From positions 118,349-182,348 of the forward strand of contig CAMAWH010000002.1 in assembly GCA_945861635.1 (NCBI GenBank): DNA of 64,000 nucleotides, given 5' to 3'. The DNA comes from Klebsiella pneumoniae (GTDB taxonomy: Bacteria; Myxococcota_A; UBA796; SXON01). This document shows, one piece after another, positions 16,294 through 60,761 of this stretch (the first letter of the stretch is position 1; every line of letters starts with the position of its first letter). The notes beneath the pieces were generated by a model, which was not told the DNA's origin, did not search any database, and was given only the letters and a program-made list of their open reading frames with translations. A program made the translations under genes and the position numbers.

Positions 16294-16682
16294 TGCGCGT
16301 CCAGGTCCATGAAGAATCCGGTACCGCCGGAGCCTCCTCCGAACGCGATGTCGAGCGTCGCGCCTTCCGGCGGAACGGCCACATCCTCCGCAATCAACGT
16401 CACATAGCCGTGCCCCGAGTGGTCCTCCGGCACATGCCACACTCCTTCTGTGCCCTCCGACGGAAAGTCAAACCCCTCGGGCGCACGCGGCCACCACAGG
16501 CGCACCGCGCCGCCTTGCGGATCCGTGACCTCAATGGAAATCTCCAGGTCCTCACCCGGCGTGATGGGAATGGCCTCCGGCAACGAGCGGGTGCCAAACG
16601 ACTCGATCGTTTTTTGCCCGTTCACCTTGGCGATAACGGGCGCAGTGTTCGTACACGCGGCGAGCACGAGGGGCAAAATCAT
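16290..16682 (-). CDS. Small lipoprotein of TonB-receptor operon
   Basis: 130 residues. MILPLVLAACTNTAP gives Cys10 with no charged residue before it, and no earlier in-frame start appears in the track. The remainder (ITPGEDLEISIEVTDPQGGAVRLWW, HGYVTLIAEDVAV) looks like a single beta-sandwich domain of cadherin or PKD type. Overlaps: start within the end of the 16679-17524 gene (four bases) and stop overlapping the PHM-like gene start (ATGA). A surface accessory to the copper protein is the simplest reading; no catalytic motif is seen. Confidence 0.75.
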   Translation of the reverse strand: MILPLVLAACTNTAPVIAKVNGQKTIESFGTRSLPEAIPITPGEDLEISIEVTDPQGGAVRLWWPRAPEGFDFPSEGTEGVWHVPEDHSGHGYVTLIAEDVAVPPEGATLDIAFGGGSGGTGFFMDLDAQ

Positions 16683-30807: not shown

Positions 30808-31845
30808 ATGCGCGCACTACCGCTGTTTCTCCTTGCAGGGTGTTCTGACTACAACGTCAGCGGAGATAACAAGCCGACCAAGGGCAGAAATCAGGACGAT
30901 ACCCACACCGTCGATACCGGCGCATCACAGGATAGCGTACCGACGGACACCACCGACTCTGGCGGCGATACGGTCACCGATAGCGGCGGGGATAGCGGTA
31001 CGGTGGAAGAACCACCGAAGGGAAAGATCGACGTGGTCCTATTAATCGACGTCGCGTATTGGTACGATTGTTACCACGCCGATTTGGCGGTGGAAGGCGC
31101 GGCGCTGATCAACGCGCTGATGGGCAGCGGCGCGAATATCGCCATTTCCGTCGCAACCTTTGACGACTACAACGTCGATGGACAATGGTACACGGCCTAC
31201 GGTGGCCTGCCGTACATCATGAAGCAGCAGCTCACCACGGACACGGGATTGTTGCTTTCAGCAGTGTCGGGTTTGGAGTTGGTCTGGGGCGGAGACGGGC
31301 CGGGAACGGGTTTTGAGGCCATCGCCCAGGCCACCAAAGGTGATGGCTATGATCAGGATTGCAACGGCAATTACGACGCCGCCTATGACATCAAACCGTT
31401 CAACCAACGCGGCTCAGACGCCTTCAACGGGGGCGTGAAGGGTACGGCGAACAGCGGGACGCCAGGCACCGGCACGATTCCCGGCGCGGGCTGGAGAGAC
31501 GGTTCGACACGCGTCGTGGTTGCGTTCGCAGAGAACGCTTTCCGTGATCGCGACGAAGGGCATGCGTTTCCCGTGGGCTCGTGCGCGGCCGTCAACACCG
31601 GCAGCGCGACGATCGCCGCACTCGGCTCGATTGGCGCCGAATTCCTGGGTGTCAACGCTTATGAATTCCAGGACGAGGATCCGGTGCTTCAGCGGCAACT
31701 GGAGGCGATCGCCAACGGAACGCACTCCAAGATCGACGCCGACGCAGACGGGGCCATCGACGACGTCGCGGTGCTGTCCGGAAGCTGGGATTGGCCCGCC
31801 ACGAGCGTGCTCGTAGCGGCCATCTGGGACGTGGCGACGCCCTGA
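30808..31845 (+). CDS. VWA-like lipoprotein with altered MIDAS
   Basis: The ATG at 30808 gives MRALPLFLLAGC with Cys12; the 30397 track start is antisense to the neighbour. A Thr/Asp/Ser linker (about 20-70) precedes a von Willebrand factor A-like domain: KIDVVLLIDVAYWYDCYHADLAVEGAALINAL and ISVATFDDYNV, STRVVVAFAENAFRDRDEG, and GAEFLGVNAYEFQ. In true VWA domains the first strand ends DxSxS; here it is DVAYW, so the metal-dependent adhesion site is degenerate. 345 residues, probably on the outer membrane. Convergent to the ureidopropionase gene with a seven-base gap. Confidence 0.75.
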   Translation: MRALPLFLLAGCSDYNVSGDNKPTKGRNQDDTHTVDTGASQDSVPTDTTDSGGDTVTDSGGDSGTVEEPPKGKIDVVLLIDVAYWYDCYHADLAVEGAALINALMGSGANIAISVATFDDYNVDGQWYTAYGGLPYIMKQQLTTDTGLLLSAVSGLELVWGGDGPGTGFEAIAQATKGDGYDQDCNGNYDAAYDIKPFNQRGSDAFNGGVKGTANSGTPGTGTIPGAGWRDGSTRVVVAFAENAFRDRDEGHAFPVGSCAAVNTGSATIAALGSIGAEFLGVNAYEFQDEDPVLQRQLEAIANGTHSKIDADADGAIDDVAVLSGSWDWPATSVLVAAIWDVATP

Positions 31846-34231: not shown

Positions 34232-36403
34232 TCACGGTTTCATGTGGAACGTCAGCGTGCCGCCGGCGGTAAGGCGATCGTGCCGGAACGTCGGTGCGGT
34301 CCACGGGATGCCGTTTAATTCCACCGACGCGACCTGCTCGCCCTTGCCGGTGCGCGTAACCGTAAATCGCCCGCCCCCGACGGCGAACGAAGCCTCGGAA
34401 AACCGCGGTACGCCGACGACATAATCGACCGTGCCCGCGATGGGATAAAATCCCAACGCCGAAAATATGTACCAGGCGGAAAGCGTTCCTGCGTCATCAT
34501 TTCCGGCCAGCCCATCGGGATCAACGAAATACCGCTCATCCTCGATCCACCGCACCCAACGCTGGGTCGCCGAGGGATCCCCCCACAGGGCGAAAAGATA
34601 CGCCGCGTGAATATCCGGTTCATTTCCGTGCCAGTACCAATCCGGCGGGGAGATCATCTGGCCCTGCGCGTCGGCGTTCTGAAAGAATGTTTCCAATCGC
34701 GCGCGTGCCGCGACGCGCCCGCCGAGCAACTCGGCCAATCCTTCGGGGTCGTGCGGGGCAAGCCAGAGGTAATGCCAGGCATTGCCCTCGACAAATTCAT
34801 CGGTCCAGAACAGCTCGTTTTCCAACTCGGTGAACGCGCCGTCCGCATTGCGCCCGTGGAAAAATCCGATCTCCGGATCGAAAACGTTCCGATAATACAG
34901 CGAGCGGTGCTTGAAATGCGCCGCATCCGCGCCTTCCCCCAACGCGACAGCCATTTGTGCGAGGGCCGCGTCGGCCCACGCAACTTCCTGTAGCCACGCC
35001 ACGCTGCCGCCGAACATATCCGCGGGATAATATCCGTACGCTTCCTCTGTCGCGACATCCATACGGGCGTTGTAGGGAATACTCCCCTCACCCATGGCCT
35101 GGGCGCGGATATGCGGCCAAGCCCGCACCGCATCCCAGTCACGGACGCCCTTGATGTAGGTGTCTGCAAGTACGATATCGGCGGGCGAGCCGATCATCGA
35201 CCCGCCATCGCCTTGGGCCACGGGCCACTTCGGAAATGCGCCCCCTTGATCCGCCATGGTCACCAAGGATTGCGCGAAATCGTTTGCCTTTTCCGGATAG
35301 AAAAGCGTGTACGCCGGGTGCGCGGTCCGGTAGGTATCCCACATCGACATGTCGGAGTGGTAGGTGAACCCCTCGGCGTGATGGAGTTGTTTGTCAAACC
35401 CGATATACGAGCCGTCCACGTCGGAATACTGCGTGGGCATTTGCAGCAGGTGGTACACGCTGGTCCAAAAAATCGTGCGTTCGGTAGTCTCTCCGCCGGT
35501 GATCGAAAACTCCGCCAACTGGGATTCCCACTCCGCCGCCGCGAGTTGGACCGTCTCGGCGATATCGCGTTCGGGCAACTCCGCGTTCAGATTCGCCAGT
35601 GCATTCTCCTCGCTCACCAGAGAAAGGCCTACCCGAATATCGGTGTCCGGCGTGACGCGGAGCCAAGCGCCGACGTCCACACCGCCCGCCGTTACGCGCC
35701 CCTCCTTCGGGTCGTTGTCTCCCCAGGTACCGAAGCCGGAAAATCCGGTATCGAATACCGCGTAGAAGTAGATACGGAAGGCGTTGGACCCGCCTGAAAA
35801 ACTCCCACTATTCGTCATGTACCCGTGAACGACACCCAACTCCTGATCGACGTTGATGGTGGCATCGACGTTGCGCCCGCCGAGCACGTGTTCGAGGTCG
35901 ATAACGACGACCGGGTCAATATTCTCAGGAAAGGTATAGGCATGCTGCCCCGCGTGCATCGTGGCGCTCAGCGAAACGGAAATGCCATTGTCGAGCGTGA
36001 CGCGGTACGAGCCGGGCGAAGCTTCCTCCTGGTCGTGGGAAAATCCGCTTCGGAAGCCGGTCGGATCCGTCTTCGTGTCATCCCACCCGTCCGTGGGCGC
36101 GAAAAGAATATCGCCTTCATCGGCCACGCCGACGCCGTGCATGTGGACGTGAGAAAATCCAAGAATATAATCGTCGTCGTAATAATATCCTGAGCAATGG
36201 TAGGCATTCAGCGCGCCCGTCACCAACGAGGTATCGGGGCCGAGCTTGACCATCCCGAACGGTACCGTTGCCGCGGGCGTTGCGCTGCCCACTCGGAAGC
36301 CCGGACCGCCCGTCCCGATCATCGGGTCAACCTCGGAGACGCGGGTGTGCGGCAACGGTCGCACGCTGTCAATGACAACACATGAAAGCAAGAGCGGTAG
36401 CAC
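34232..36403 (-). CDS. GH92 alpha-1,2-mannosidase lipoprotein
   Basis: The GTG at 36403 gives VLPLLLSCVVIDS with an eight-residue lipoprotein signal; the 36757 track start overlaps a divergent gene and has no signal. About 723 residues. GH92 landmarks are present: DPMIGTGGPGFRVGSATPAATVPFGM (about 25-50), the N-terminal beta-sandwich, then the helical domain with MSMWDTYRTAHPAYTLF, WYWHGNEPDIHAAYLFALWG and GNDDAGTLSAWYIFSALGFYP, the last two carrying catalytic acids. GH92 enzymes remove mannose from glycans using calcium. Predicted to be on the outer membrane, so it probably degrades external mannan or glycoprotein. Divergent from an FG-GAP gene only 19 bases away. Confidence 0.93.
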   Translation of the reverse strand: MLPLLLSCVVIDSVRPLPHTRVSEVDPMIGTGGPGFRVGSATPAATVPFGMVKLGPDTSLVTGALNAYHCSGYYYDDDYILGFSHVHMHGVGVADEGDILFAPTDGWDDTKTDPTGFRSGFSHDQEEASPGSYRVTLDNGISVSLSATMHAGQHAYTFPENIDPVVVIDLEHVLGGRNVDATINVDQELGVVHGYMTNSGSFSGGSNAFRIYFYAVFDTGFSGFGTWGDNDPKEGRVTAGGVDVGAWLRVTPDTDIRVGLSLVSEENALANLNAELPERDIAETVQLAAAEWESQLAEFSITGGETTERTIFWTSVYHLLQMPTQYSDVDGSYIGFDKQLHHAEGFTYHSDMSMWDTYRTAHPAYTLFYPEKANDFAQSLVTMADQGGAFPKWPVAQGDGGSMIGSPADIVLADTYIKGVRDWDAVRAWPHIRAQAMGEGSIPYNARMDVATEEAYGYYPADMFGGSVAWLQEVAWADAALAQMAVALGEGADAAHFKHRSLYYRNVFDPEIGFFHGRNADGAFTELENELFWTDEFVEGNAWHYLWLAPHDPEGLAELLGGRVAARARLETFFQNADAQGQMISPPDWYWHGNEPDIHAAYLFALWGDPSATQRWVRWIEDERYFVDPDGLAGNDDAGTLSAWYIFSALGFYPIAGTVDYVVGVPRFSEASFAVGGGRFTVTRTGKGEQVASVELNGIPWTAPTFRHDRLTAGGTLTFHMKP

Positions 36404-37793: not shown

Positions 37794-40561
37794 GTGAACT
37801 TCACCTGCGCTTCCACCGACCGGGGCGCCTGGCGGTACAACGTCAGTCCGAAATTCTGGTCGTCATTTTCGTCGTAGGTAATGGCCGTCGAGAAATCAGC
37901 CACGTTGTAGACGTTGATCGCCAACTCAGCCGAATATCGGTCCCCAAAACTCAGCTCCTGCGCCAGGCGCATGTCGATATAGTGCGCGGCGGGCATGAAC
38001 CGGGTCCCGCGGCCTTCGGGAAAGGCACTGTAATCCTGGTAGTTGTCGAGATACCCGCGCTTTTGCCACGCGTGTCCCGAATCGAATTCGTAGACGACGC
38101 CAACCGTCGTGCCCCAAGGCGCCGTGTAGCTGCCATTGATCTTCGCAGAATGGAACGAGTGATAGGGTAGATATCCAGAATATCCAGCGTCGTCGGACTG
38201 GGTGCCCAAGCCGGCCTGTCCATCGAGATATGCGCCCTGGCCGCCCTCAAAATACTCTCGGCGGGTTTTCTGGTCGTTGACGTCATCTCCCCAGACGCCG
38301 ACATCGTTGCCGGCCGAGCCGAAATCACTCCCCGTGGCGACTTCATCCTGTCCAGGATGCGTGCCGGTGGACTCGGAGTAGGTGTAGCTGGCAAGGACCT
38401 GCCAAGCGTCGTCAAACTTCCGTTCGACCGTCAGTTCTACGCCCCAATAATCGCGCCGTTTATTCGGCGGATTGGTGATGACCCAATTCACGTCGTCGTA
38501 GTTGATGTCCTCCGGCAGGTCAACGGTTTGCGAGAGAATGCCGCGGACGCCAACCGCCAGCAGCGGGATGACCTCACGCTCGACGCCAAGCACCAACTTG
38601 TCCATGTGGTACGGGCGCAGCGAGCCATTACACGCCTTTCCCGCGCCCTTGCGCGTTGCCTCGTCCAGCGCGCCGAGGCTATAGTCGTTGCAGAAGATGA
38701 GCGGCTCGGGCGATTGCGTATATTCTTTGACATACCCGCCGGTGTCTGCGTCAAACGTGTAATAAGTGAATCCATTCGCCGATTTACTGTCTCCCCAACT
38801 CGCAAACGTATTTCCGGCGACGTCGAAATACCGACCCGCGTTCACGCTCACAAGCGTCTTGCTGTCTCCCGTGGCGTCCCATGCGGCGCCGAGACGCGGC
38901 GCCGGCATCCACTGGTCCAGCACAACACTTCCGCCGCTTTCGTACAAGGTTTCGTGGTCTAGTCGGACACCGAGATTCAGCGTGAGCGGGTCTACCGGCG
39001 ACCAATCGTCCTGAATGAACTGCGCATACAACAGGCCCTCGTGACCCAACTTTCCGGCCGCCGAATATTCCACCTTATCCACGCAATCGGCGTACAACGG
39101 CGCCGTGCACGGCAGCCCCTGAGAAGCGTCAGACGTGTAACTGGTCCACCCGGAGTAGATCAGTTTCCGCGATTCGTAGAGGCGCCACGCCTCCATTCCG
39201 ACCTTCAGCTTATGCGAGCCAAGGACGTTATCCACAAGGTGGGTCACCTTCAGCGTTCCGCCGAGCCGCTGCCGCTCGTTGAGGTCTTCCGAGTTGTAAT
39301 TGCTGCCGTACTCACTGGTTTCAAGGTTCAGGATCGGCGGCGTGTCGGTTTCTCCCGACATCGGGACGGAATTGGAGTGGCCGTTTGACACGAGGAACTC
39401 GGTATCCACCAGTGTCGTTTCGCCAGGCGCCCAACTCAGGCGCAGCAGATGGCTCTGATCGTCCGAATTCGACCGGGACTGCGCCTCCGGAAGCACCTGC
39501 GGCGACGTTTCGTCGTTTTCACTCCCCGAGAGCTCCCCGTTGAATTGGTACCGCAGCACGACGCCCGGCGCGGCAAACCAGGTGAGCTTTGCAAACCCAC
39601 CGATGCTCTGCCCGAGGTAGGGCGCTGCCGCCGACGTTCCCTCGTAGGCCGTCGTGTCCCGACCGGCATCGACCGCCACAAAATACCAAAGGGTTTCCTT
39701 GATGACCGGCCCACCCGCCGTCAGCGAGAGCGTATTCACCATGATGTCCCTCTTCTTGGTCGCCACCTCCTCGTGCTTGTCGAGGTCGGCGATATCATAT
39801 TTTCCGGGCGAGAAATCGGTCGTCAGCGTGTAGATGGCGCTGCCGTGGTGCTCATCTCCGCCGTCCTTGGTGACGACGTTGACCATCATTCCGGTGGCCT
39901 GACCAAATTCGGCGGGCGCGCCGTCGGTGTACACCTGAATATCCTCGATGGCGTCGAAGTTGACGTTGGCGCCAAATGTCTTGGTGGCTGGATCCCGCGT
40001 GGAAATTCCGTCGACGAGGTAATTGTTTCCGCTCTGTCCCTCGCCGCGCACGGAGGGGTTTCCCGAGCCCGGTCCACCTGTTTCCGTATCCACCCGGCCG
40101 GAAATGCCTGGCAGCATGTTCACGGCGTCCTGAAAACTACGCCCAACCGGAAGATGGGCCAGCGTTTCGTTCGAAAGCTCCGTGGACACCGCGGATCGCG
40201 TGGTGTCGATGACGGGAAGCGTCTCCTCGACCAGCACTTCCTCCATGCCGGCGACCTTCAGCGTGACGGGAACAGTGGCCGTCTCGTCGAGACGCACGGT
40301 CACGACCCGCCGAATGGGCGTCAGTCCGCCCATGGCGGCCCGGAAGTCATGCGTCCCCACGGGTACGCTGAGGAAGCGGAAATCGCCGTTTTCATCGGCC
40401 GTTACGGACAGTTCGCCGGCAATTCCCGGCCCACTCAGTGTAATGACGGCACCTGGAACATCCAGCCCACCGTCGTCCACCACATGTCCGCGAATCGCGC
40501 CCGATTCGGCGGCCTCGGCCATCGGGGCGTAGAGCGCCGCCAGCGCGATGAACCCAATCAC
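37787..40561 (-). CDS. TonB-dependent receptor (large, with N-terminal regulatory-like domain)
   Basis: 924 residues with a Sec signal MIGFIALAALYAPMAEA. A CarboxypepD_reg domain (about 23-105: GAIRGHVVDDGGLDVPGAVITLSG) is followed by the plug (about 110-260: VLVEETLPVIDTTRSAVSTELS, LPVGRSFQDAVNMLPGISG, NNYLVDGIST, FDAIEDIQVYTDGAPAEFG, GMMVNVVTKDGG) and a barrel ending QVKFTY. This architecture resembles the large 'OprA/CirA-like' receptors common in Myxococcota. Start overlaps the upstream lipoprotein stop as ATGA. Ligand unknown; no TonB box recognised. Strand overlap with the FG-GAP gene at its end. Confidence 0.92.
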   Translation of the reverse strand: MIGFIALAALYAPMAEAAESGAIRGHVVDDGGLDVPGAVITLSGPGIAGELSVTADENGDFRFLSVPVGTHDFRAAMGGLTPIRRVVTVRLDETATVPVTLKVAGMEEVLVEETLPVIDTTRSAVSTELSNETLAHLPVGRSFQDAVNMLPGISGRVDTETGGPGSGNPSVRGEGQSGNNYLVDGISTRDPATKTFGANVNFDAIEDIQVYTDGAPAEFGQATGMMVNVVTKDGGDEHHGSAIYTLTTDFSPGKYDIADLDKHEEVATKKRDIMVNTLSLTAGGPVIKETLWYFVAVDAGRDTTAYEGTSAAAPYLGQSIGGFAKLTWFAAPGVVLRYQFNGELSGSENDETSPQVLPEAQSRSNSDDQSHLLRLSWAPGETTLVDTEFLVSNGHSNSVPMSGETDTPPILNLETSEYGSNYNSEDLNERQRLGGTLKVTHLVDNVLGSHKLKVGMEAWRLYESRKLIYSGWTSYTSDASQGLPCTAPLYADCVDKVEYSAAGKLGHEGLLYAQFIQDDWSPVDPLTLNLGVRLDHETLYESGGSVVLDQWMPAPRLGAAWDATGDSKTLVSVNAGRYFDVAGNTFASWGDSKSANGFTYYTFDADTGGYVKEYTQSPEPLIFCNDYSLGALDEATRKGAGKACNGSLRPYHMDKLVLGVEREVIPLLAVGVRGILSQTVDLPEDINYDDVNWVITNPPNKRRDYWGVELTVERKFDDAWQVLASYTYSESTGTHPGQDEVATGSDFGSAGNDVGVWGDDVNDQKTRREYFEGGQGAYLDGQAGLGTQSDDAGYSGYLPYHSFHSAKINGSYTAPWGTTVGVVYEFDSGHAWQKRGYLDNYQDYSAFPEGRGTRFMPAAHYIDMRLAQELSFGDRYSAELAINVYNVADFSTAITYDENDDQNFGLTLYRQAPRSVEAQVKFTY

Positions 40562-41334
40562 TGCGTACCTCCAAAGGAAATCGGGAAGTCAACGCAGACG
40601 GTGCCCGTGTCGGTCGTGGCCGAACTGTCGAGAGGCGAACTCTCGGGCGGCTCACTGTCGGCGGGCGGCTCACTGTCCGAAGGCGAACTGTCGGCTGCTG
40701 CGGAGTCAAGTTCCGCGTCGCAAATCGCCGTTTCGCCATCGCACGGCGCGCCCAGGACCACCACACCCGCGGCATCCACCAACTCCACCCAGTACACACC
40801 GTCCGGCAAGGCGGGCGCGTCAAAGTGGACGATGCCCGTACGACAATCACTGACCAGCGGGAGATTGCCGGAAACCGGCACCCCCGCCCCATCCACGAGG
40901 ACGGCGTGCAGGCCGGCGGCGTCGAGGCCACACCCGTGCAATGTCACGGGCGCACCGGCGGACACGCCACACTGGGGCTCAACGACATCGATGCTTGCCC
41001 CAGGACAAGCCACGTAAAAGTACCCCGCGCTGGTATCCGCGCTCAACATGGACGTCTGACTTCCCGACGACACGACGACGTCCACCGGACCCGCTTTCGC
41101 CGCCTCCGGCACGACGCCGGTGAGGTAAAAACCGGTATTCAATGCGTCGGTTGGGCGCTCGATGGACTCCAGATCGTTGTCCGCCATCCGCACGCTTGCG
41201 TCGTCGGCGAACCCATGTCCGGACACCTTGACGGTTTCGCAGCCGACATCCCAGCCATAGATGGGGCGGATCGAGACGACGGCGAAGCCGGTATTCCCGC
41301 AGCCGGCGAGCATAAAGAGGAGGGCAGCAATCAC
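40558..41334 (-). CDS. IPT/TIG-like lipoprotein partner of TonB receptor
   Basis: 258 residues, first possible in-frame start, MIAALLFMLAGCGN giving Cys12 with no charged residue before it. The body has two beta-sandwich segments resembling IPT/TIG domains: ETVKVSGHGFADDASVRMADNDLES, TGVVPEAAKAGPVDVVVSS, APVTLHGCGLDAAGLHAVLVDGAGVPV. A Ser/Pro/Asp tail (SAAADSSPSDSEPPADSEPP) precedes a Cys-containing C-terminus. The ATGA overlap links it to the TonB receptor. Likely a surface ligand-binding accessory. No catalytic motif. Confidence 0.78.
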   Translation of the reverse strand: MIAALLFMLAGCGNTGFAVVSIRPIYGWDVGCETVKVSGHGFADDASVRMADNDLESIERPTDALNTGFYLTGVVPEAAKAGPVDVVVSSGSQTSMLSADTSAGYFYVACPGASIDVVEPQCGVSAGAPVTLHGCGLDAAGLHAVLVDGAGVPVSGNLPLVSDCRTGIVHFDAPALPDGVYWVELVDAAGVVVLGAPCDGETAICDAELDSAAADSSPSDSEPPADSEPPESSPLDSSATTDTGTVCVDFPISFGGTQ

Positions 41335-45145: not shown

Positions 45146-46252
45146 CTACCGGCGGCGAACCCCGTCAATCCAGACCTGCTCTGCGCTGGCCAATGTCGCA
45201 GGATCGGACATCGGATCCTGGGCGAGCACGAGGAGGCTCGCGGCCTTCCCAACCGTGATCTCGCCAAGATCCGCGAACCCCCAGTAGGCGGCTGGCGCGC
45301 TGGTGCCCGCGGCGAGGATGGCCGCGCCGTCCAACCCAGCCTGCATCATGAGCGCAATCTCACCTGGATCAATGCCGGCAGTACGCGTATTACCGAAGTC
45401 TGTTCCGTACAGCACCCTGGCGCCTGCACCGCGCAGGGCGGAGAGGTTCGCTACCGTGTCCGCACCGCCTCCAAACGCCAATAATGACGATACAACGGCG
45501 CCACTCGACCATGAGCGCAGCGTGGTCGCCGATAGCGGTTCCGTCGGCGTGTGCGCCAAAACGTCCACGCCCGCAAGCGCAGCAGCCGCCGCGTCCACGT
45601 CCGAAAGCGCGTGCGATGCGACCTTTACGCCCCGAGCATGCGCGCGTGCGACGACGCCGGTCTGCGCGGCGGCGTCCAACTGCGGCCCGGTCGTAATTGG
45701 CAGTTTGATGACCCCGGCCCCCGCGTCAATCAACACGTCCACCGCCGCCACCGCATCGTCACCGCTCGAACACTCCATTCCGTACCCGTTCCGTCCCCAT
45801 CCCCGCGTCGGATAGCCAGCCGGCGCGGTGATCATGGGGCCCGACGCGATTAGTTGGATGGGACCGTGCGACGCAGCGAGGAACGCAACCGGCGCGGCGA
45901 GATCCACCGCTCCCGCCACCCCGCCCGTCGCGAGTTCTTCTCCGCGCGGATCGTACGCAAGGTGGACGTGGCTGTCGATGAATGCAGGGACAAGCCAGCG
46001 GCCTGTCAGATCGATCACCTCACCGGCCACGGCGGCGGCGCCCACTGCGACAATGCGCGCCCCCTCGATCTCCACGTCGGCCAGGCCCAGGCCCACCACC
46101 GTTGCCCCGTGCAGGCGAAAGTGGCCTGCCGCAGCGCCGATTGCGCTATCGGAAGGCGCAGAATCACTGCCCGTTTCCGTGGCAGAGTCCGGGGATCCCG
46201 AATTCGCCGCCCCACAGGGTTCGGAACAGGCAAAAAGCGCGGAAAGCAGCAT
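45146..46252 (-). CDS. Amidohydrolase-family lipoprotein
   Basis: The ATG at 46252 gives MLLSALFACSEPC, Cys9 signal; the 46681 track start is a read-through antisense to the next gene. About 368 residues: a Ser/Asp/Thr linker (about 15-45), then an imidazolonepropionase-like amidohydrolase with GRWLVPAFIDSHVHLAYDP (HxH), GAGVIKLPITTGPQL, KVASHAL, DVLAHTP and RVLYGTDFGNTRT (metal Asp), ending GEITVGKAASLLVLAQDP. The first metal site and Asp are present, so it may be active outside the cytoplasm. Substrate unknown. Confidence 0.85.
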   Translation of the reverse strand: MLLSALFACSEPCGAANSGSPDSATETGSDSAPSDSAIGAAAGHFRLHGATVVGLGLADVEIEGARIVAVGAAAVAGEVIDLTGRWLVPAFIDSHVHLAYDPRGEELATGGVAGAVDLAAPVAFLAASHGPIQLIASGPMITAPAGYPTRGWGRNGYGMECSSGDDAVAAVDVLIDAGAGVIKLPITTGPQLDAAAQTGVVARAHARGVKVASHALSDVDAAAAALAGVDVLAHTPTEPLSATTLRSWSSGAVVSSLLAFGGGADTVANLSALRGAGARVLYGTDFGNTRTAGIDPGEIALMMQAGLDGAAILAAGTSAPAAYWGFADLGEITVGKAASLLVLAQDPMSDPATLASAEQVWIDGVRRR

Positions 46253-51349: not shown

Positions 51350-53031
51350 CGACGCGGTGGCGCAGCGTGTTTCCACTCGTCACGGCGTGGAGCGTCGTCA
51401 CCGTGGTTACCTGTTTGCTCGCCTGGCCGCTCCCGCTTTCCCTGACGACATCACGACCGCAAACTGCGTTTCTTGACAGCTACGTGTGGTGCCTCGACAC
51501 GATGGCGCGCATGGTGACCGGCGAGCTGCCCTGGTCCACTTCAACATCGCTCCTGGGCTTCCCCGCCACGCTGGACGTCCGATTCGTCGCATGGGCAGAT
51601 ATGCTTGTCGTGCTACCGTTGCGAGGTAGCTTGGGGCCAGTTGGCGCGACGAATGTGGCGTGGTTGCTATCGCCGGGCTGGGCGGCGCTGGCCGCGTTCG
51701 GGTTTTACCGACGCCTCACGCGATCGGGCGGTTGGGAGGCCGCGGCCGGGGCGGTTGCCTACGCACTCAGTCCGGTTGCGCTGGGCTGCCTCGCCTCCGG
51801 ACAGTTGTCGAAGCTCCAACATTGGACACTTCCCGCGTGGGGTTGGGCGCTGATGGCGGTGCTGGAGGCGCGCCGACTCGGGGGCGAGCTTGCCACACTT
51901 GCGGCCGTAACGGCCATCGTCGGATTCACGAGCCCCGTTCACGCCATGTTTCTCCCCGTGATTGGCGGAATCATCGGGATTGTGCACGTCCGCGGAGGGG
52001 GATCAGGAAGAACTCCGGGCCGGCTGGTCCTTGGCGTCGGTGTCGCCGCGCTCATCGCCGGGGCCGCGCTGACACCCGCGCGCGCCTACTTTGGTGATAT
52101 TCGAGAAGCTTCCTCCCAAAAAGCATTCTCCCCTGCGAACGTTCAGGCCAATCAAGTGTTCGGCCCGCCCTCGAACGTGGCGCAACCGACCGCCTATTTC
52201 GCGGGCGAACCCAGCCACGCACCGACGGTGCCCTCTCCGAAACACGTGCCGTACATGGGGGTGTTTGGCGTGTGCGCCGTCGCTGCACTTGGCGTGCGCC
52301 GACGTCCGGGCCGCGCCGTAGCGCTCGGGCTGGTCGTCGCCGGGAGCCTGCTGTCATTTGGACCGAGATTGGCGGAGGCGGACAACTACCTCCTCCTCGG
52401 CGATGCCCCCGTCTGGCTGCCCGCACAGCTCCTCGTTCTCGCGCACTACCCGCTTTCGGACAGTGGAATGTACTACCGATGCATGTTCGTGGCCGCGCTC
52501 GGCTTCGGCGCCATGGTGGCCGGCAGCGCGCGCCTGGCCCCCGGCCGCGGTGGCGTCGTGTTATCATGGATGCTTGGTATGCTCTGGGCGGCCGATGGAA
52601 TCAGGGTTACGCGCGATTTGTGGCCGCGCACGCTGGTACCGATTCAGGGCCGCACCGTCCTCGATGCCATGTCGTCGGACCCAACACCCGGCGCCGTTCT
52701 CGACCTGCCCATCGCACACACGCCCTACCAGGCGGGGCTTGCCATGCTCAACGCCGCATTTCACCGGCGTGCCATCCTCGCCACCCCGCGCCACGGCGAC
52801 CCCGAGAGTCTCCCCCAACTCTCTCGCGCGGAGTCCGTGTTGACTGGCGTGCTCGCCGCCGAGGATCGTGCTTCGGCGCACCAGATCGCATCGGAGGCGG
52901 GGTTCAGGTACGTGACGGCGTGGCGCGGGGGCCTGAGCCCACCCGGCGTGCCCATCGAACAGCTGGAGCGGGCGCTTGGGCGGCCGGAGCGCGAGGGAGA
53001 TTTGCTGGTCTGGACGGTCGATCGGCCCTAA
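51346..53031 (+). CDS. Multipass membrane protein
   Basis: ATG at 51346 overlaps the PBP stop by four bases; the 51109 track start is rejected. 561 residues with around ten membrane helices (PLVTAWSVVTVVTCLLAWPLPL, ATNVAWLLSPGWAALAAFGF, LATLAAVTAIVGFTSPVHAMFLPVIGGIIGIVHV, AVALGLVVAGSLLSFGP). The C-terminal 150 residues are soluble (RTVLDAMSSDPTPGAVLDLPIAH). Resembles GT-C type or YfhO-like membrane proteins by layout only. No motif for substrate. The four-base overlap with the convergent barrel gene and PBP coupling suggest an envelope role. Confidence 0.7.
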   Translation: MTTRWRSVFPLVTAWSVVTVVTCLLAWPLPLSLTTSRPQTAFLDSYVWCLDTMARMVTGELPWSTSTSLLGFPATLDVRFVAWADMLVVLPLRGSLGPVGATNVAWLLSPGWAALAAFGFYRRLTRSGGWEAAAGAVAYALSPVALGCLASGQLSKLQHWTLPAWGWALMAVLEARRLGGELATLAAVTAIVGFTSPVHAMFLPVIGGIIGIVHVRGGGSGRTPGRLVLGVGVAALIAGAALTPARAYFGDIREASSQKAFSPANVQANQVFGPPSNVAQPTAYFAGEPSHAPTVPSPKHVPYMGVFGVCAVAALGVRRRPGRAVALGLVVAGSLLSFGPRLAEADNYLLLGDAPVWLPAQLLVLAHYPLSDSGMYYRCMFVAALGFGAMVAGSARLAPGRGGVVLSWMLGMLWAADGIRVTRDLWPRTLVPIQGRTVLDAMSSDPTPGAVLDLPIAHTPYQAGLAMLNAAFHRRAILATPRHGDPESLPQLSRAESVLTGVLAAEDRASAHQIASEAGFRYVTAWRGGLSPPGVPIEQLERALGRPEREGDLLVWTVDRP

Positions 53032-54374
53032 AATCGCACGACCGTCGCCAACCCCACATTCGATACTGCCCGAAAACCTCGGAGGGCACTGCCCTCTGGC
53101 CCATCGATCCAAACACCGCCCAGCGAGATCTCTGCAGCATCCCCGTGCAGATAGACGATTTCGCCGGCACCGAGGTAGCCCGCGCCGTCACTCACGCCCC
53201 GCAGCGCCAGCACCCACCGGTCGGCAAGCGTGATTCGTACCGCCAACATGCCGTAATCGTGCACATCCGCACCCTGACGCTCGGTCGGAAAGCCATGTAG
53301 CCACTGGACGTTGACATACAATCGCCCAGTGCTTCGATCAAGCCCGACTATCCAGCGCAGATAGGGTTTCCCGTCCTGCGTAATGGTCGTGGGGATGGGA
53401 TCGGGGACTTCGTCGAGCGCCCCGAGGTCCGTGAGATCCTGGAGCTGGCCCTCGGAGAGCGACGCCTGCGTGCGCGCTGGCAACACGATGGCCGCCTCGA
53501 CCCAACCGCCAACGTCCCAGGGTAATTCCCCGCGTGCCTCCAATCCGCCCACATCGATGCGCGGCCACGTCACCGGAACGCCAACGTCAACGCGATCGGA
53601 ATTCGTCGCAAACCCGGTGAGGAGCACGGTGCCATCGACCTGAGGGAGCGAGTCCCGGCCGTGAAACCACGACAACGCCAAATCGGCGCGCGGCACCTGC
53701 ACCCGGACGCGCCCGGCCAGGGAGCTGTTGGCGAGTGATGTTGGTGGGACCGTCGTAATGCTGTCCAATGAGCGGACATCCGTGGCGTTGGCTCCCCCGA
53801 CATCAAAAACGTCGCGAGCGCCGGCGAGTACATCAACCTGATCGGTAGGTAGCACGGCAGGGATGAAAAAGGGCGCCCATCCGACCTCCGCGATGACCGG
53901 CCCCGGATGGGCGTTCACCACGAGCATCGGCACCGCGAGGCGCCCGTCAAACCGCGTCGGGTCCTCCAGATCGTACGGATTCAGGTTGTTGACGAGCGTC
54001 ACACCATCGGCCACGCCCCAGTGCAGCGTCTGCACGCCGGTACCAAGGTCCAGCCACGGCGCTCCCACGCCAAACGCACCGATGCTCGCCTCCTTCAGCT
54101 TCAAGGACAAGGGCGAGATCAGCGTGACGCTGCCGCTGTCCTCGATGGTCTCGAGATCGGTCGTGGCGTGGGCCCGCAGGTCCGCGGCAAGCACAGCGCG
54201 CACACGACGATCAAAGTCCGCACGCACCGCGCCTCCCAACACGGCCGCGTCATGAAAATCGACGTACCCGCACGTCGGACTACACCCGTTGACGGCGACG
54301 CGCGCGTGCGCCTCGACGCGCCCTGAGCCGTCTACGTCCACCGCAAGGGCCGCGCCCGCAACCGCGAGCAGCAT
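53028..54374 (-). CDS. Outer membrane beta-barrel protein
   Basis: 448 residues with a short signal (MLLAVAGAALAVD) and a terminal Phe (GLATVVRF). Alternating polar/hydrophobic beta strands run through the sequence (RRVRAVLAADLRAHATTDLE, WLDLGTGVQTLHWGVADGVTLVNNL, RVRVQVPRADLALSWFHGRD, RWIVGLDRSTGRLYVNVQWLHG). The barrel resembles DUF1302-type or porin-like proteins often paired with LolA-like proteins. Downstream of a small lipoprotein gene and a LolA-like gene. Transport of a lipid or hydrophobic molecule is plausible, not shown. Confidence 0.72.
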   Translation of the reverse strand: MLLAVAGAALAVDVDGSGRVEAHARVAVNGCSPTCGYVDFHDAAVLGGAVRADFDRRVRAVLAADLRAHATTDLETIEDSGSVTLISPLSLKLKEASIGAFGVGAPWLDLGTGVQTLHWGVADGVTLVNNLNPYDLEDPTRFDGRLAVPMLVVNAHPGPVIAEVGWAPFFIPAVLPTDQVDVLAGARDVFDVGGANATDVRSLDSITTVPPTSLANSSLAGRVRVQVPRADLALSWFHGRDSLPQVDGTVLLTGFATNSDRVDVGVPVTWPRIDVGGLEARGELPWDVGGWVEAAIVLPARTQASLSEGQLQDLTDLGALDEVPDPIPTTITQDGKPYLRWIVGLDRSTGRLYVNVQWLHGFPTERQGADVHDYGMLAVRITLADRWVLALRGVSDGAGYLGAGEIVYLHGDAAEISLGGVWIDGPEGSALRGFRAVSNVGLATVVRF

Positions 54375-54377
54375 CCG

Positions 54378-54881
54378 CTAGATTCGTTCGGCGGTAACGT
54401 CGAGGCGGACGTCACACGGATCAGCCGCTACAACCGGACAGTTATCCTCGTCGAAGCTGCCCGTGTGAAGCAGCGCGAACCCCTGCACCTTGTTCGGATT
54501 CACGATGGCAAGGTCAATGTCGATGCTGGCATCCACCATGCAGCCGGGGCTGTTCTGCGCATCCCACTCGACATTGGTCTGCTCGGCGCCTGCAACCAGC
54601 ATGTGACCGCTGCGATCTCCCTCCTCGACCGTGACCTCCATTTCCGTGAACGGGTCCTGGAGGTCGATGCTGTAGGTGGCGGGCAGATCCTCGGTGGCCG
54701 GAAGTTCGATTTCAGACTCGAAATCCGTCGGATCGCCCGTCGGCATGAAGATCGTCTCGAACGCGCCATCGTTGCAGTCGTCGGTGACAGCGGTGGTGGT
54801 GAACTGGAAGTTCCCTCCTTCGAACGCCTTGGAGCTGTCCGTTTCGGTGGGAGTGCAGGCGAGCAGGGCGATGAGAAACAT
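54378..54881 (-). CDS. Small lipoprotein in LolA-like/barrel cassette
   Basis: 167 residues. MFLIALLACTPTET gives Cys9. The start is secure: AGGAG lies six bases upstream and an in-frame TAG stop sits just 18 bases upstream. The sequence is acidic with Cys pairs (CNDGAFETIFMP, GCMVDASIDIDLAIV, DNCPVVAADPCDVR), like an extracellular beta-rich domain. No motif. Sits between the LolA-like gene (16 bases) and the barrel gene (4 bases), so in one operon. Confidence 0.82.
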   Translation of the reverse strand: MFLIALLACTPTETDSSKAFEGGNFQFTTTAVTDDCNDGAFETIFMPTGDPTDFESEIELPATEDLPATYSIDLQDPFTEMEVTVEEGDRSGHMLVAGAEQTNVEWDAQNSPGCMVDASIDIDLAIVNPNKVQGFALLHTGSFDEDNCPVVAADPCDVRLDVTAERI

Positions 54882-54896
54882 GGGGACTCCTGAGGA

Positions 54897-55616
54897 CTAT
54901 GGTCGGGTAAGTTCGGTGAGGGAAAATCGATCGTCGAGGATGCCACGATCCATTTCTGCCAGCGTGACAGTAGCGGCCGTGTGCTTGGCATTCACAAGAT
55001 CGTCCACGACGAGCGAATGCGCGATCGGCCGATTGCCCTCGACGCGGAAATCTGCAAGCTTCAAGCGGCGCGTCACGGCACCCGACGCGTCCAAGTGCTC
55101 GACCTGCGAAACGAGGTCATCCACGCGACGCACCCAGATGCGCACGGACGCATCACGATGCGCAGCTTTGTCTTTCGGCGTGAGTTCGAGCACCGCGACG
55201 TCCCCAATCACGTCTCCGAGGGTGGCCGTATACTCGTCGGACCAATTCATTCGGGACAGATCTTCCATCGAAAAGTCCGTTCCCATGAACGAATCCCCCC
55301 GTTGTTCCCCGATGACCCGGCGGGGCTTCCCGTAGGCAGGTAGGTACAGATACAGGGTGTCGGCATCCGGCACCAGCAAACCCGTTCCGGCGAGGCGCGC
55401 AGGCGCCGTGAAGCGAACGAGGCGCTTCTGCGTGCCTTTCTGCCAAATTTCGAGCGTCCGATCGGACGAAGTGCCCGTGCGGTCGGTAACGGCGACATGC
55501 AGCACGAGGTGTGCATCCGACCCGCGAGCGTTCGCAGCGTCCACCCGAGCCAGCAGCGCCTCGGCAACGTTCGCGGCGTCGTCGGCAGCAAAGGCAAGGG
55601 AAAGGAGCGCAAGCAT
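54897..55616 (-). CDS. LolA-like outer-membrane lipoprotein-sorting family protein
   Basis: ATG at 55616 (MLALLSLAFAADDAAN) with a ten-residue signal; the 55652 start adds 12 residues without changing the domain. About 239 residues. The PF17131-type beta sheet of LolA-like proteins is visible: DAHLVLHVAVTDRTGTSSDRTLEIWQKGTQKRLVRF, LVPDADTLYLYLPAYGKPRRV, GTDFSMEDLSRMNWSDEY, IWVRRVDDLVSQVEHLDASG. These proteins usually carry lipids or sterols to the outer membrane, often with an RND exporter not present here. Paired with the barrel gene at 53028. Confidence 0.85.
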   Translation of the reverse strand: MLALLSLAFAADDAANVAEALLARVDAANARGSDAHLVLHVAVTDRTGTSSDRTLEIWQKGTQKRLVRFTAPARLAGTGLLVPDADTLYLYLPAYGKPRRVIGEQRGDSFMGTDFSMEDLSRMNWSDEYTATLGDVIGDVAVLELTPKDKAAHRDASVRIWVRRVDDLVSQVEHLDASGAVTRRLKLADFRVEGNRPIAHSLVVDDLVNAKHTAATVTLAEMDRGILDDRFSLTELTRP

Positions 55617-55685
55617 CGCAGGCCCTTTCGCACATCGCGCACTCGCCGTCAACTGATCGCGTCAACCGGGGTAGAATGCACGCGC

Positions 55686-56057
55686 ATGTTGCTCGTCCAC
55701 ATTTTCGCGTGCGCTCCCCTTACGGGGGATTGGTCGGGAACCATCGATTGCCTCTCCCACGAAATGTCCATTTCCCTCACGTTGGCCCCCGATGGGGATA
55801 GGTACAGGGGATCTGGTGAGGTTGATTGCGTCGAATACTACGGCAGCGCCTGTACGGAGACGTTCGACCTGTTCGTCGTCCCGAGTGACTGGTCCGGGTC
55901 GCAACATCTGGCTGCACACCTTGAGAATTGCGTGGTGACAACCGATGACTCCACCGGTGCCGCAGATTGCATTGACCCGGACGGCTTGCGTTGGGACGGC
56001 TCGGATGCCATCGCTGGGGATTGGGGCGATTGTGACACAGAATTGGAGCGAGAATGA
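55686..56057 (+). CDS. Small lipoprotein, first gene of pyrF operon
   Basis: The ATG at 55686 gives MLLVHIFACAPL, Cys9; the 55497 track start overlaps the divergent LolA-like gene and reads Arg-rich. 123 residues, with GDWSGTIDCLSHEMSISLTLAPDG and six Cys pairs, resembling a small lipocalin- or META-like beta barrel (TGDWSGTIDC...). Stop overlaps the HhH lipoprotein start as ATGA. Function unknown. Confidence 0.7.
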   Translation: MLLVHIFACAPLTGDWSGTIDCLSHEMSISLTLAPDGDRYRGSGEVDCVEYYGSACTETFDLFVVPSDWSGSQHLAAHLENCVVTTDDSTGAADCIDPDGLRWDGSDAIAGDWGDCDTELERE

Positions 56058-56635
56058 TGCTTTTTCTCCTCTTCGCCTGCGGGACGGACGTGCAGGTTGC
56101 CGCGCGCCCCGACGAAGAAACGGCCCAGGAGCGGCTGGGGCTCACGGACTCGCAGGTGCGCCAAATCCTTGCGTTCCTGCACGACTGTGACACGACGTTT
56201 GACCTCCTGGACGCGGCCGTGGGCCTCGACCGGGATGCAACGACGAACCTCATCGAGTTTCGAGATGGCGCCGATAAAACCTGTGGAACCCGTGACGATG
56301 GGAAGTACGAGACCCTCGATGACGTAGACGCCATCACGCAGGTCGGGGATCAAACGATGCTCGACATCCTTGCGTACATCGAAGGCGGGGGGGATGGCGC
56401 CGGAGAGTGGGAGGGGGTGGAGTTCAGCGCCGCGGAGCAAACGGCGGCGCTGGATATCGCGAACAACGCGACTGAAGCGCAACTCCGTGACGACGCTGGA
56501 TTGGCGGCCGATGAAGCTGCGAATATCGTAAGCGCACGACCGATCACATCGATGGATGAGCTTGCGAATGTCTCGCAGATCGGGGCCACCGCCATGCAGA
56601 AGATCCGGGACTACATTTCGTCATGGAACGCGTAG
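56054..56635 (+). CDS. Lipoprotein with helix-hairpin-helix motifs
   Basis: 193 residues starting MMLFLLFACGTDV with Cys9, no earlier in-frame start; GGAG is present upstream. The N-terminal part has a duplicated helical pattern (LTDSQVRQILAFLHDCDTTFDLLDAAVG, YETLDDVDAITQVGDQTMLDILAYI) and the C-terminus repeats it (ADEAANIVSARPITSMDELANVSQIGATAMQKIRDYI), matching tandem helix-hairpin-helix motifs (ComEA-like). Such motifs bind DNA backbone; a surface lipoprotein with HhH may bind extracellular DNA, as in competence, or be a structural duplication. Overlaps the upstream and downstream genes. Confidence 0.8.
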   Translation: MMLFLLFACGTDVQVAARPDEETAQERLGLTDSQVRQILAFLHDCDTTFDLLDAAVGLDRDATTNLIEFRDGADKTCGTRDDGKYETLDDVDAITQVGDQTMLDILAYIEGGGDGAGEWEGVEFSAAEQTAALDIANNATEAQLRDDAGLAADEAANIVSARPITSMDELANVSQIGATAMQKIRDYISSWNA

Positions 56636-56829: not shown

Positions 56830-57680
56830 CGTTCTCCGAGCGGCTGTCGGAGGGCGTGAAACAAACCAACACATGCCTGTGTGTCGGTATCGACCCGTGG
56901 CCGGACCGACTCCCTGGCCGGCAGGCCTTGGGCGCCGATCCCAAAAAAGAGGAACTCGCTGGGTTGGCGGGTCGCTTCAGCCATGCCGTCGTCGACGCCT
57001 GTGCCGGGCTGGTACCGGCGGTCAAGCCCCAGTTCGCGTTCTTCGAAGCCCTCGGTCCCGCAGGAATGACCGTTCTGGCCGATGTCTGTGGCTACGCGCG
57101 CGCGGCTGGCCTGGTCGTGATCGGCGACGCGAAACGCGGTGACATCGGCTCAACGGCTGAGGCCTACGCAACCGCAACATTGGGCGCGAACGCTCCCTTT
57201 CCGTGTGACGCGCTCACCGTTTCGCCATTTCTCGGACCCGAGACCGTGCGGACGTTTCTGGACGCTGCCACCGCTGCCGCGTGCGGAGTCTTTGTCCTGG
57301 TCCGCACCTCCAACCCGGGATCGAGGCGCTGGCAGGCGCCCGTCGTCGAGGATCTGACGCGGTGGATTGCGGAGAATTCTGTAGCGGACGGCGTCGGTTT
57401 TTCGCCACTCGGGGTCGTGGTGGGCGCGACGAACGGCGCCGAGATCGCCGAGATACGCGACCGGTGCCCGCGCTCCTGGCTCTTGGTGCCGGGGTTCGGC
57501 GCGCAAGGCGGGAGCGCACGAGATGCGCGTCGCGCGCTGCGTGACGACGGGCTCGGCGCGCTGATCGTGAGCGCGCGCGGTGCAACCTTTCCGGCGGGCG
57601 TCGACCCCCGCTACGATCGCGACCCCACCGCATGGATTCGAACGCGCGTTGCGGCCACGGTTGCGGAGCTCCGGCCGTGA
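56826..57680 (+). CDS. pyrF: Orotidine 5'-phosphate decarboxylase (type 2)
   Basis: 284 residues. OMP decarboxylase signature DAKRGDIGSTA holds Asp101, Lys103 and Asp106, with CVGIDPWPDRLP near the N-terminus, VKPQFAFFE, and LLVPGFGAQGG and SARGATFP at the phosphate site. This longer form is the type-2 family found in Myxococcota and mycobacteria. It makes UMP, the last step of de novo pyrimidine synthesis, the opposite direction to the catabolic genes elsewhere in the window. Encoded in an operon with small lipoproteins, overlapping both neighbours by four bases. Confidence 0.94.
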   Translation: MTFSERLSEGVKQTNTCLCVGIDPWPDRLPGRQALGADPKKEELAGLAGRFSHAVVDACAGLVPAVKPQFAFFEALGPAGMTVLADVCGYARAAGLVVIGDAKRGDIGSTAEAYATATLGANAPFPCDALTVSPFLGPETVRTFLDAATAAACGVFVLVRTSNPGSRRWQAPVVEDLTRWIAENSVADGVGFSPLGVVVGATNGAEIAEIRDRCPRSWLLVPGFGAQGGSARDARRALRDDGLGALIVSARGATFPAGVDPRYDRDPTAWIRTRVAATVAELRP

Positions 57681-58411
57681 TCCTGCTGGCGATCGCGTGC
57701 TCGGCGCCCGGCGACGCGACGGGATCGCTCGTGGACGCGCGCACCGGGGCCGCCGTATCGGGCGCAGAAATCGAGTTCGTCAGTGAGGCTTCAGCGCCTT
57801 GCGTGCGGTTTATCGCGACGACGGATGCGGCCGGCCTGTTTCGCGTCGATCACCTGTGCGCGGGGGAGTCCTACGCCGTCCGTCCCGCCGATCCGACCTG
57901 GGTCATGCCAAACGGTACGACGATTTCCGGAGGATCGAAAGGACAGACCGTTGCACTCCAGGCGTGGCGCGTGCCGACGTCGGAAGGGCTCTGGATCCTG
58001 GAGGGGCAGACCCTGACCCGCTTGCCGACGAACACGGCGCTGGACCGCGCGCGCGGAGCCGATGGCGCCGAGGTCCGGTTCCCCACGGAAATCCCCGGCG
58101 CGCCACCCTCGATCACGGCCGACAGGATTCTTGTACTCGCCGGTGCGGCCGTCGCGGATTGGAACATCCTCCCCCTCCTGCCCAGCGAGCGCCGAACCTT
58201 CGTAGACCGCCCGCTCCCCGTTGATCCGTGGGTCTACGTCGGGGTGAGGTTTGTCTCGGACACAGAAGCCGAGGCCGTGCGAGTGACGCCTACCGGTGTG
58301 AAGGAATTTACGGCTCGGCAAACCCGGTATTTTACCGCGGGTGCCGTGCCGCCCGGATCGTACGTGGTCGCGGCGCCGGAGAGCTACCGCGCGCTGATTG
58401 TCAGCTTCTGA
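57677..58411 (+). CDS. Lipoprotein with carboxypeptidase-regulatory-like domain
   Basis: The GTG at 57677 (VILLAIACSAPG, Cys8) overlaps the pyrF stop by four bases (GTGA). About 244 residues. Residues about 12-75 (GSLVDARTGAAVSGAEIEFVS...ATTDAAGLFRVDHL) form a CarboxypepD_reg-type beta sandwich. The rest, with PFVPLPVDPWVYVGVRFVSD and RYFTAGAVPPGSYVVAAPES, looks like a second such domain. No enzyme motif. Last gene of the pyrF operon; convergent to plsC. Confidence 0.75.
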   Translation: MILLAIACSAPGDATGSLVDARTGAAVSGAEIEFVSEASAPCVRFIATTDAAGLFRVDHLCAGESYAVRPADPTWVMPNGTTISGGSKGQTVALQAWRVPTSEGLWILEGQTLTRLPTNTALDRARGADGAEVRFPTEIPGAPPSITADRILVLAGAAVADWNILPLLPSERRTFVDRPLPVDPWVYVGVRFVSDTEAEAVRVTPTGVKEFTARQTRYFTAGAVPPGSYVVAAPESYRALIVSF

Positions 58412-59489: not shown

Positions 59490-59794
59490 TGGGAACCGAA
59501 CGCATCGACACCCTCGTCAAGGCTCACGACGTCGTCCTGTTCATGAAGGGCACCAAAATGTTCCCGCAGTGCGGGTTCTCGTCCAAGGCCGTCGGTATTC
59601 TGAATCACCTCGGCAGCAAGTATGAAACCGTAGATGTTCTGGCCGATGCCGACATTCGGGAGAGCGTGAAGGCCTACTCCAATTGGCCGACCATTCCGCA
59701 GCTCTACATCCGCGGGGAATTCGTTGGCGGCTCGGACATCATGATGGCGATGTTCGAGAGCGGCGATCTACAGAAGAAGCTCGCCGGCGCCTGA
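59489..59794 (+). CDS. grxD: Monothiol glutaredoxin (Grx4/GrxD)
   Basis: The ATG at 59489 (MGTERIDTLV) overlaps the bolA stop by one base. 101 residues. CGFS at 28-31 is the active site, TIPQLYIRGEFVGGSDIMM at 76-95 gives glutathione and cluster contacts. It carries 2Fe-2S clusters with BolA. The convergent DNRLRE gene overlaps its end by 56 bases. Confidence 0.94.
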   Translation: MGTERIDTLVKAHDVVLFMKGTKMFPQCGFSSKAVGILNHLGSKYETVDVLADADIRESVKAYSNWPTIPQLYIRGEFVGGSDIMMAMFESGDLQKKLAGA

Positions 59795-60761
59795 TTCCGA
59801 GGCCGGCAAGCGGGATGAAAAGCAGGGCAGCGCCGGAACCTTCTCCGCATGAGCAGCCGGCCCCGAGCGCGGAGCCGCCCGCGCAGTCTTCGTCCACAAC
59901 GCCGTCACAGTCGTTGTCCAGGTCGTCACAGGTTTCGGCGTGTCCGGGGTAGACGAAGGCATCCGCGTCGTCACAATCCCCTTCCGACGCCGAGTATCGG
60001 TCACGGTCATCGTCGGCATCCGGCGAAGCGGAATCTCCCGTGTCCCCTTCACAATCGATCGTGGACGATGAACAGTCGTTGTCGATTCCGTCGCACGGGA
60101 TTTCAGTGGCGCCCGGGGTCGCGGCGGCCTCCGCGTCATCACAGTCTTGCCAGATGTCCGCTCCGTCCGCATCACGATCTGGCGCGTTGAAGCCAATCGT
60201 GAGCGTCGGCGGTTTCACGCTCTCACTGCTGTAAAGCGTTGTGAGTGCAGTTTCATTTGTGTCAGCAAGGATCACCCACCCATCGTTACTCTCTCCCGTC
60301 AACCATCCCGCGATACAATCTGATACATCGACGCTGAGTGCGGTTTTCGACCCGATGGGAGCGGCACACTGCACACCCCATGTGCTGGAGCCTGCACCCA
60401 CCGTGGACCACGGCTCATCCGTGGATGCGTGCGTCCACGAGGCGGTCGATTCGTCCCACGCTTGCGTCAACTGCCAAATCTCCAGATGCGTCGGTGCGAC
60501 CTCGGCCGGCGTGTAAATCGTCAGCGCGGCCGTCAGGATCTCGGCGCCCGGTGGAATGTGTGGGTAGGCCGTCCCGATGAGATCGGGGAACGCGAGAAGC
60601 GCGCGCTGGGTCACCGGCCCCGCACCGAGCACCATCAGCGTTCCGGCGGAACCGCCGTCCGTGCCGTTTGCAGAGGAAATGGTGGTATCGACAGCGGTCG
60701 TCGACCCATCCCAGGTGGTGTAGTAGGTGTCGGCGAGTGCGACGCTCGCAAGCCAGAGCAT
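59739..60761 (-). CDS. DNRLRE-domain / MopE-repeat protein with MYXO-CTERM-like end
   Basis: The ATG at 60761 gives MLWLASVALADTYY, a ten-residue Sec signal. About 340 residues: a DNRLRE-type domain (about 11-180: YYTTWDGSTTAVDTTISSANG, RALLAFPDLIGTAYPHIPPGAEI, ALTIYTPAEVAPTHLEIWQLTQAWDES), then a MopE-type segment (DADGADIWQDCDDAEAAATPGATE, DNDCSSSTIDCEGDTGD, SEGDCDDADAFVYPGHAETCDDLDNDCDG) and a C-terminal GAGCSCGEG, hydrophobic stretch and RRRR. Beyond the RRRR it continues for 13 residues (ASSVDRRSRTSPS) into DNA shared with grxD; a normal MYXO-CTERM ends at the Arg cluster. Likely a secreted surface protein. Confidence 0.82.
   Translation of the reverse strand: MLWLASVALADTYYTTWDGSTTAVDTTISSANGTDGGSAGTLMVLGAGPVTQRALLAFPDLIGTAYPHIPPGAEILTAALTIYTPAEVAPTHLEIWQLTQAWDESTASWTHASTDEPWSTVGAGSSTWGVQCAAPIGSKTALSVDVSDCIAGWLTGESNDGWVILADTNETALTTLYSSESVKPPTLTIGFNAPDRDADGADIWQDCDDAEAAATPGATEIPCDGIDNDCSSSTIDCEGDTGDSASPDADDDRDRYSASEGDCDDADAFVYPGHAETCDDLDNDCDGVVDEDCAGGSALGAGCSCGEGSGAALLFIPLAGLGIRRRRASSVDRRSRTSPS

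Follow-up and report, generated by a model that had tools for sequence, protein, structure and literature searches.

Ultra-short, mostly uncharged candidate lipoprotein signal peptides within an apparently Myxococcota-related order of uncultured bacteria

The DNA analyzed here, referred to as the window, is a stretch of 64,000 nucleotides (positions 118349-182348 of contig C2 of the source genome, G000, which comprises 5.58 Mb in 128 contigs). The gene at 54378-54881 (reverse strand) encodes a candidate lipoprotein with the N-terminus MFLIALLA/C, where the slash marks the predicted cleavage site and the putative lipobox cysteine is residue 9; the product has no Pfam family. The start of this gene is forced, meaning that no in-frame ATG, GTG, or TTG is found farther upstream. 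An in-frame TAG lies 18 bases upstream, and the start is preceded by the Shine-Dalgarno sequence AGGAG (within CAGGAG), as had been proposed in an earlier reading made from the sequence alone. On the forward strand, the gene at 55686-56057 encodes the candidate MLLVHIFA/C (Cys 9), with TAGAAT 14 bases upstream of a start that is not forced. It overlaps through ATGA with the gene at 56054-56635 (forward), which encodes M(M)LFLLFA/C with the cysteine at residue 8 or 9. The start of the latter gene is forced, with an in-frame stop 8 codons upstream and a GGAG sequence, and its product carries a helix-hairpin-helix domain (PF12836). Adjoining the gene at 54378-54881 in the same orientation is that for a LolA_like protein (PF17131) at 54897-55616 (reverse), so assigned from its Pfam match, whose N-terminus is a probable SPase I signal, MLALLSLAFA/ADD. 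A secreted protein with the probable SPase I signal MLLAVAGAALA/VDVDG is encoded from a forced start at 53028-54374 (reverse).

All 12 of the short N-termini listed in the sequence-only reading were found in the window. That several starts besides 54881 are fixed was borne out at 56054 and at two further genes: 16290-16682 (reverse; MILPLVLAA/C, Cys 10, preceded by GGAGG) and 40558-41334 (reverse; VIAALLFMLAG/C, Cys 12, GTG start, VIAALLFMLAGC). The other eight listed genes have possible upstream starts. Among these are the candidates MLLSALFA/C (Cys 9; 45146-46252, reverse, Shine-Dalgarno sequence GGGGAGG), MIFAIVLA/C (Cys 9; 8167-9159, forward), and MLSHLLSLIA/C (Cys 11; 2932-3738, forward), the last with a -10-like box, TACGGT, at the spacing of a leaderless transcript. 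The GTG start of VILLAIA/C (Cys 8; 57677-58411, forward) overlaps the pyrF stop codon and has GGAG upstream; its product gives a weak CarboxypepD_reg match that falls under the cut-off of that family. The gene for MILYPIALGVG/C (Cys 12; 15313-16293, reverse) overlaps the upstream gene, and its start is not forced. Two starts are ambiguous: the gene at 11769-12974 (reverse) encodes either MWLLFA/C (Cys 7) or MIGDMWLLFA/C (Cys 11), and that at 34232-36403 (reverse) encodes either VLPLLLS/C (Cys 8) or, from the start preferred by the gene caller, a protein with Cys 29. A short predicted lipoprotein signal with a single arginine, MRALPLFLLAG/C (Cys 12), was called at 30808-31845 (forward). The secreted protein at 59739-60761 (reverse) begins MLWLASVALA/DTYY and has a TACGGT box at leaderless spacing. 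Signals of the ordinary kind are also found in the window, at 21133-22638 (VRFASALLLLLVGVGC) and at 16679-17524 (MARRIPVVRL...).

Genes were called with a hexamer-score script in the window and an additional 400 kb of the source genome, for a total sample of 464 kb, and 260 kb of a relative, G025, was used for comparison. The gene caller weighs coding score when it picks starts, and starts that are not forced are therefore not independent evidence. The lipobox cysteine was located at or before residue 12 in 36 of the 61 lipobox proteins of the source genome sample, and 34 of these 36 have no Lys or Arg before the cysteine. Among the lipobox genes that lack any upstream start, the corresponding count was 13 of 24. 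In G025 the cysteine was at or before residue 12 in 30 of 45 lipobox proteins (18 of 27 lipobox genes with fixed starts), none of the 30 has a Lys or Arg, and the distribution peaks with 16 genes whose cysteine is at exactly residue 8. The mode of the cysteine position is 8-9, forced starts included. The proportion was 5 of 31 in G028, a member of the same order, and 2 of 18 in four further relatives; the median lipobox cysteine positions were 12 (source genome), 10 (G025), 16 (G028), and 17 (the four further relatives).

The excess of cysteine near the N-terminus was also apparent without any lipobox definition. Cysteine at residues 7-12 was found 69 times in the source genome against 29.4 expected (P = 2.6e-10), 59 times in G025 against 15.6 expected (P = 1.9e-17), and 27 times in G028 against 18.3 expected; there was no enrichment at these residues in the four other relatives. 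Where residues 2-7 form an uncharged hydrophobic stretch, a cysteine was found at residues 7-12 in 33 of 56 genes versus 4.1 expected. The ultra-short and mostly uncharged predicted signals noticed in the window are thus real and genome-wide. A search of the short signals for a twin-arginine motif before the hydrophobic run returned none, and arginine is almost absent from them. Compensation of the missing charge by an acidic mature N-terminus was considered and rejected, as Lys or Arg occurs at positions +2 to +6 in 12 of 72 short versus 6 of 35 longer signals of the short-signal genomes (p = 0.58).

The distribution of the short signals was determined with the pattern ATG(NTN)5GCNTGY, which encodes M-[FLIMV]5-A-C, and the same pattern read backward served as the control. 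The source genome contains 31 matches versus 0 for the control, and the control gave 0 or 1 in each of the 63 genomes of the order. Family f1 has 7-97 matches in 21 of its 22 genomes, with a single match in G014. Outside of f1, high counts were obtained for G025 (89) and G029 (37), both from f5, and for G061 (45) from f6. The remaining genomes of the order, including sister genera in f5 and f6, have 0-6 matches, and the samples from the rest of the class and phylum have 0-4. When 84,980 species genomes were scanned with a Shine-Dalgarno-led, CTN-rich form of the pattern, only 26 stretches were returned. They come from about a dozen metagenome-assembled genomes of uncultured bacteria, which had been deposited under the names Deltaproteobacteria, Myxococcota, Pseudomonadota, or "proteobacterium"; for other phyla this is a lower bound because leaderless and GTG-started cases are missed. 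The matches include CAITDR01 (G003), CAJXRZ01 (G025), and CALGIB01 (G029), and UBA2385 shares sequence with G024. The lineage that uses the short signals would accordingly be an uncultured order related to Myxococcota. At the level of sequence, the existence of the short signals, their starts, the enrichment of cysteine over chance, the clade limits, the presence of normal signals beside the short ones, and the conserved enzymes are direct observations.

Three changes of the trait are required on a tree of SecY, where f1, the G025/G029 pair, and G061 occupy separate places. Three groups within this single order each gained or retained the short uncharged signals independently of one another. 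The relatives that lack them have lipoprotein signals of 13-17 residues with one arginine. Secreted proteins that are not lipoproteins had been described as similar to the lipoproteins, and this held, since short uncharged A-X-A signals such as MLALLSLAFA/ADD occur in the same genomes. Short uncharged SPase I signals are also present in non-short relatives such as G028 (MVTLLAALSFA/QP and MIALLALALA/SPP), so this trait belongs to the order as a whole and is not specific to the groups with short lipoprotein signals. We infer that short signals are tolerated throughout the order and that three lineages have driven this tolerance to its limit.

The predicted signals resemble those of known bacterial prelipoproteins of the Sec/SPase II (Lgt-LspA) pathway in having a hydrophobic core and a lipobox with an invariant cysteine, followed by a low-complexity linker. 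As in known SPase II systems, genes for Lgt and LspA are present and often adjacent: one Lgt copy adjoins LspA in the source genome (contig C31, 7255-8482) and in G025 (contig C93, 3054-4966). The signals differ from the usual SPase II signals in the position of the cysteine, which is 7-12 here versus about 15-25, and in the absence of a Lys/Arg n-region. In a Gram-positive lipoproteome the mean cysteine position was 21.4 ± 2.7, and the G+LPPv3 lipoprotein pattern calls for a Lys or Arg and then 6-20 residues (PMC13068155). A review counts a charged n-region among the features that define a lipoprotein signal (PMC9360617). Because two defining features, length and n-region charge, both fail, the predicted signals are set apart from ordinary ones; as a variant of the SPase II signal peptide, they are real, extreme, and confined to certain clades. 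A search of the open-access literature turned up no account of signals of this kind. Predictors and textbook rules demand a charged n-region and a cysteine far downstream; applied to these bacteria, they would overlook much of the lipoproteome or assign it wrong starts.

The reading that we favor, with a probability of roughly 60%, is that these are genuine minimal Sec/SPase II prelipoprotein signals handled by conventional and permissive machinery. Each signal would open with the start Met (or with a GTG start), continue with 5-9 residues of aliphatic or aromatic character, and close with a lipobox ending in Cys. The free N-terminal amine would provide the only positive charge, and the short hydrophobic run would suffice to engage SecA/SecYEG. 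The cysteine would then be lipidated by Lgt, and LspA would free a peptide of 6-11 residues. Shortening appears to be a tendency of the whole order, with its extreme in family f1 and in some members of f5 and f6. The enterococcal sex pheromones are cut from lipoprotein signal peptides and trimmed from a longer signal; their size matches that of the peptide LspA would release here, and there is no sign of signaling in the present case. If this reading is correct, the known minimum for a lipoprotein export signal may need to be revised, as a large share of the lipoproteins would have signals of 7 to 11 residues that carry no positive charge, about half the textbook length, with enzymes of ordinary appearance. 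The short signals would also be a natural data set for the old question of the lower limits of length and charge in a Sec signal. With their non-short sisters, the three separate groups provide a ready comparative design for finding a responsible factor.

The machinery is taken to be conventional and permissive because ordinary charged signals of 15-24 residues are handled in the same cell. In the short-signal genomes, the envelope lipoprotein Pal has a signal of 15-19 residues with an Arg or His; the N-termini are MSRLISFALVALLVVG/CKKK in the source genome and MSRLLSLALLAILAGAT/CRKN in G025. The short signals therefore do not amount to a replacement targeting rule. BamD, a lipoprotein in E. 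coli, was rejected as an orthologue control: no clear lipobox is seen in it for most members of the order, and several of the rows compared were antisense frames. The BamD-like protein (best TIGR03302 matches, L217-L266) has an ordinary A-X-A signal in most genomes.

In E. coli, signals that lack n-region charge normally make up for it with a longer hydrophobic core. Because core length and charge are both reduced here, good performance would not be expected of an ordinary conventional pathway, and the restriction of the trait to certain clades suggests some trans-acting change. The export or lipidation machinery might have changed in trans, through prl-like alterations of SecY or SecA or through a specialized paralogue of Lgt or LspA. 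A bare M-(hydrophobic)6-7-Cys would then be a complete and sufficient signal, read by its distance from the N-terminus rather than by n-region charge; this lineage-specific change would be a new rule of lipoprotein targeting and would have arisen three times in one order. The sharp peak at Cys 8 is consistent with this proposal, as is the number of paralogues: Lgt, for which one copy is usual (in E. coli, for example), is found in all 63 genomes of the order with 2-9 copies each, and two LspA are frequent in the order and are in tandem in G025. The copy numbers of Lgt and LspA bear no relation to the trait, however, and were rejected as its cause.

Nor did the sequences of the translocon separate the two kinds of genome. 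In an alignment of 51 SecY sequences with SecY from E. coli, the plug and pore ring positions are canonical. The prlA4 site F286 is Ala in most f1 SecYs, with the exception of genera g2 and g5, which would favor a prl-type change. G025, G029, and G061 lack this substitution and the non-short G028 has it, and a prl-type SecY change was rejected as the cause; no substitution at a known prl site of the plug, the pore ring, or TM7/TM10 is common to f1 and the short genomes of f5 and f6, where short and non-short sister genera were compared. SecA is full length with canonical motifs. No column of SecA (compared without G030) or SecY separates short from non-short genomes, and a few track the trait in part (for example, SecY, E. 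coli position 232; SecA, K/R versus L at position 281 in the open frame from G025). The SecA_PP_bind match spans 336-348 bases, versus 321-327, in f1 genera g2 and g3 and in f3 genus g12, which suggests an insertion of 5-8 residues in the preprotein-binding domain that is not linked to the short-signal trait. The catalytic Asp motifs of LspA, GNxxDR and NxAD, are conserved in 30 genomes. The loop between them exceeds that of the solved LspA structures by about 12-15 residues, and this insertion was rejected as the cause because the same or longer spans occur in other families of the phylum.

The sequence-only reading had suggested a modified Sec/Lsp system. The part of this suggestion that stands is that the lineage uses abnormally short, uncharged signals; the modification itself was sought in SecY, SecA, LspA, and the copy numbers of Lgt and LspA and was not found. 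A modified system is unproven because no change in the SecY pore, the LspA dyad, or the Lgt/LspA copy number tracks the trait, and normal charged signals coexist with the short ones. We consider a lineage-specific change of the translocon or of an Lgt/LspA paralogue to be doubtful.

It is rather improbable that the candidate lipoproteins are exported but handled differently, such that the N-terminus crosses the membrane completely and the short segment stays on the protein as a lipid-anchored tail that is left uncleaved or is processed in another way. In favor of this proposal, a helix of seven residues, about 10 Å in length, could not span the bilayer, and no n-region charge would hold the N-terminus inside. 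Against it, the signals retain the lipobox consensus L/I/F/V-A/S/G-A/G-C, and this implies recognition by LspA.

The favored reading of minimal SPase II signals also depends on the assigned starts. From many genomes, 62 M-x5-A-C sites were collected (30 loci picked for the pattern and 26 for the pattern plus a Shine-Dalgarno sequence); for 27 of them there is no upstream start, and 9 are preceded by an in-frame stop no more than 4 codons away. Genome-wide, starts carry one of two marks: a Shine-Dalgarno sequence at about -9, or TANNNT at exactly -12, the distance at which the -10 box of a leaderless transcript lies. A Shine-Dalgarno sequence or a -10-like box was found for 21 of the 36 short lipoprotein genes; the -10-like box accounts for 7 of the 36, versus 10 of 375 in a shifted control. 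In the source genome sample, a start codon stands at 6 of 10 places preceding an (NTN)5-GCN-TGY run. Hexamer scores upstream of the short starts are those of non-coding DNA, a result that is partly circular.

Orthologous sulfatases that are 46-58% identical over most of the protein provide a further comparison. The source genome enzyme begins VLLFTLAA/CSRVPTHP from a forced GTG start preceded by a TAGCTT box, and the catalytic NILLITLDTTR motif follows directly. In other families, the orthologues range from MWWLALWA/C (G047) to MRTSLLPLLVLA/C (G028) or longer. The check for homologues with longer, charged N-termini thus gave a mixed outcome, from an uncharged signal with Cys 9 to Cys 13 or later with Arg. 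Signal length thus varies freely in front of a mature domain that stays fixed. That translation instead begins upstream, perhaps at non-standard codons, and yields normal charged signals is very improbable: most short candidates outside of the forced set do have some in-frame upstream start, but the forced cases have in-frame stops 2-8 codons upstream, and the start marks, the upstream hexamer scores, the start codons before the hydrophobic runs, and the sulfatase orthologues all speak for the proposed starts. In the window and loci L021-L040, TANNNT stands at exactly -12 in about 7% of genes, versus a regional mean of about 0.5%.
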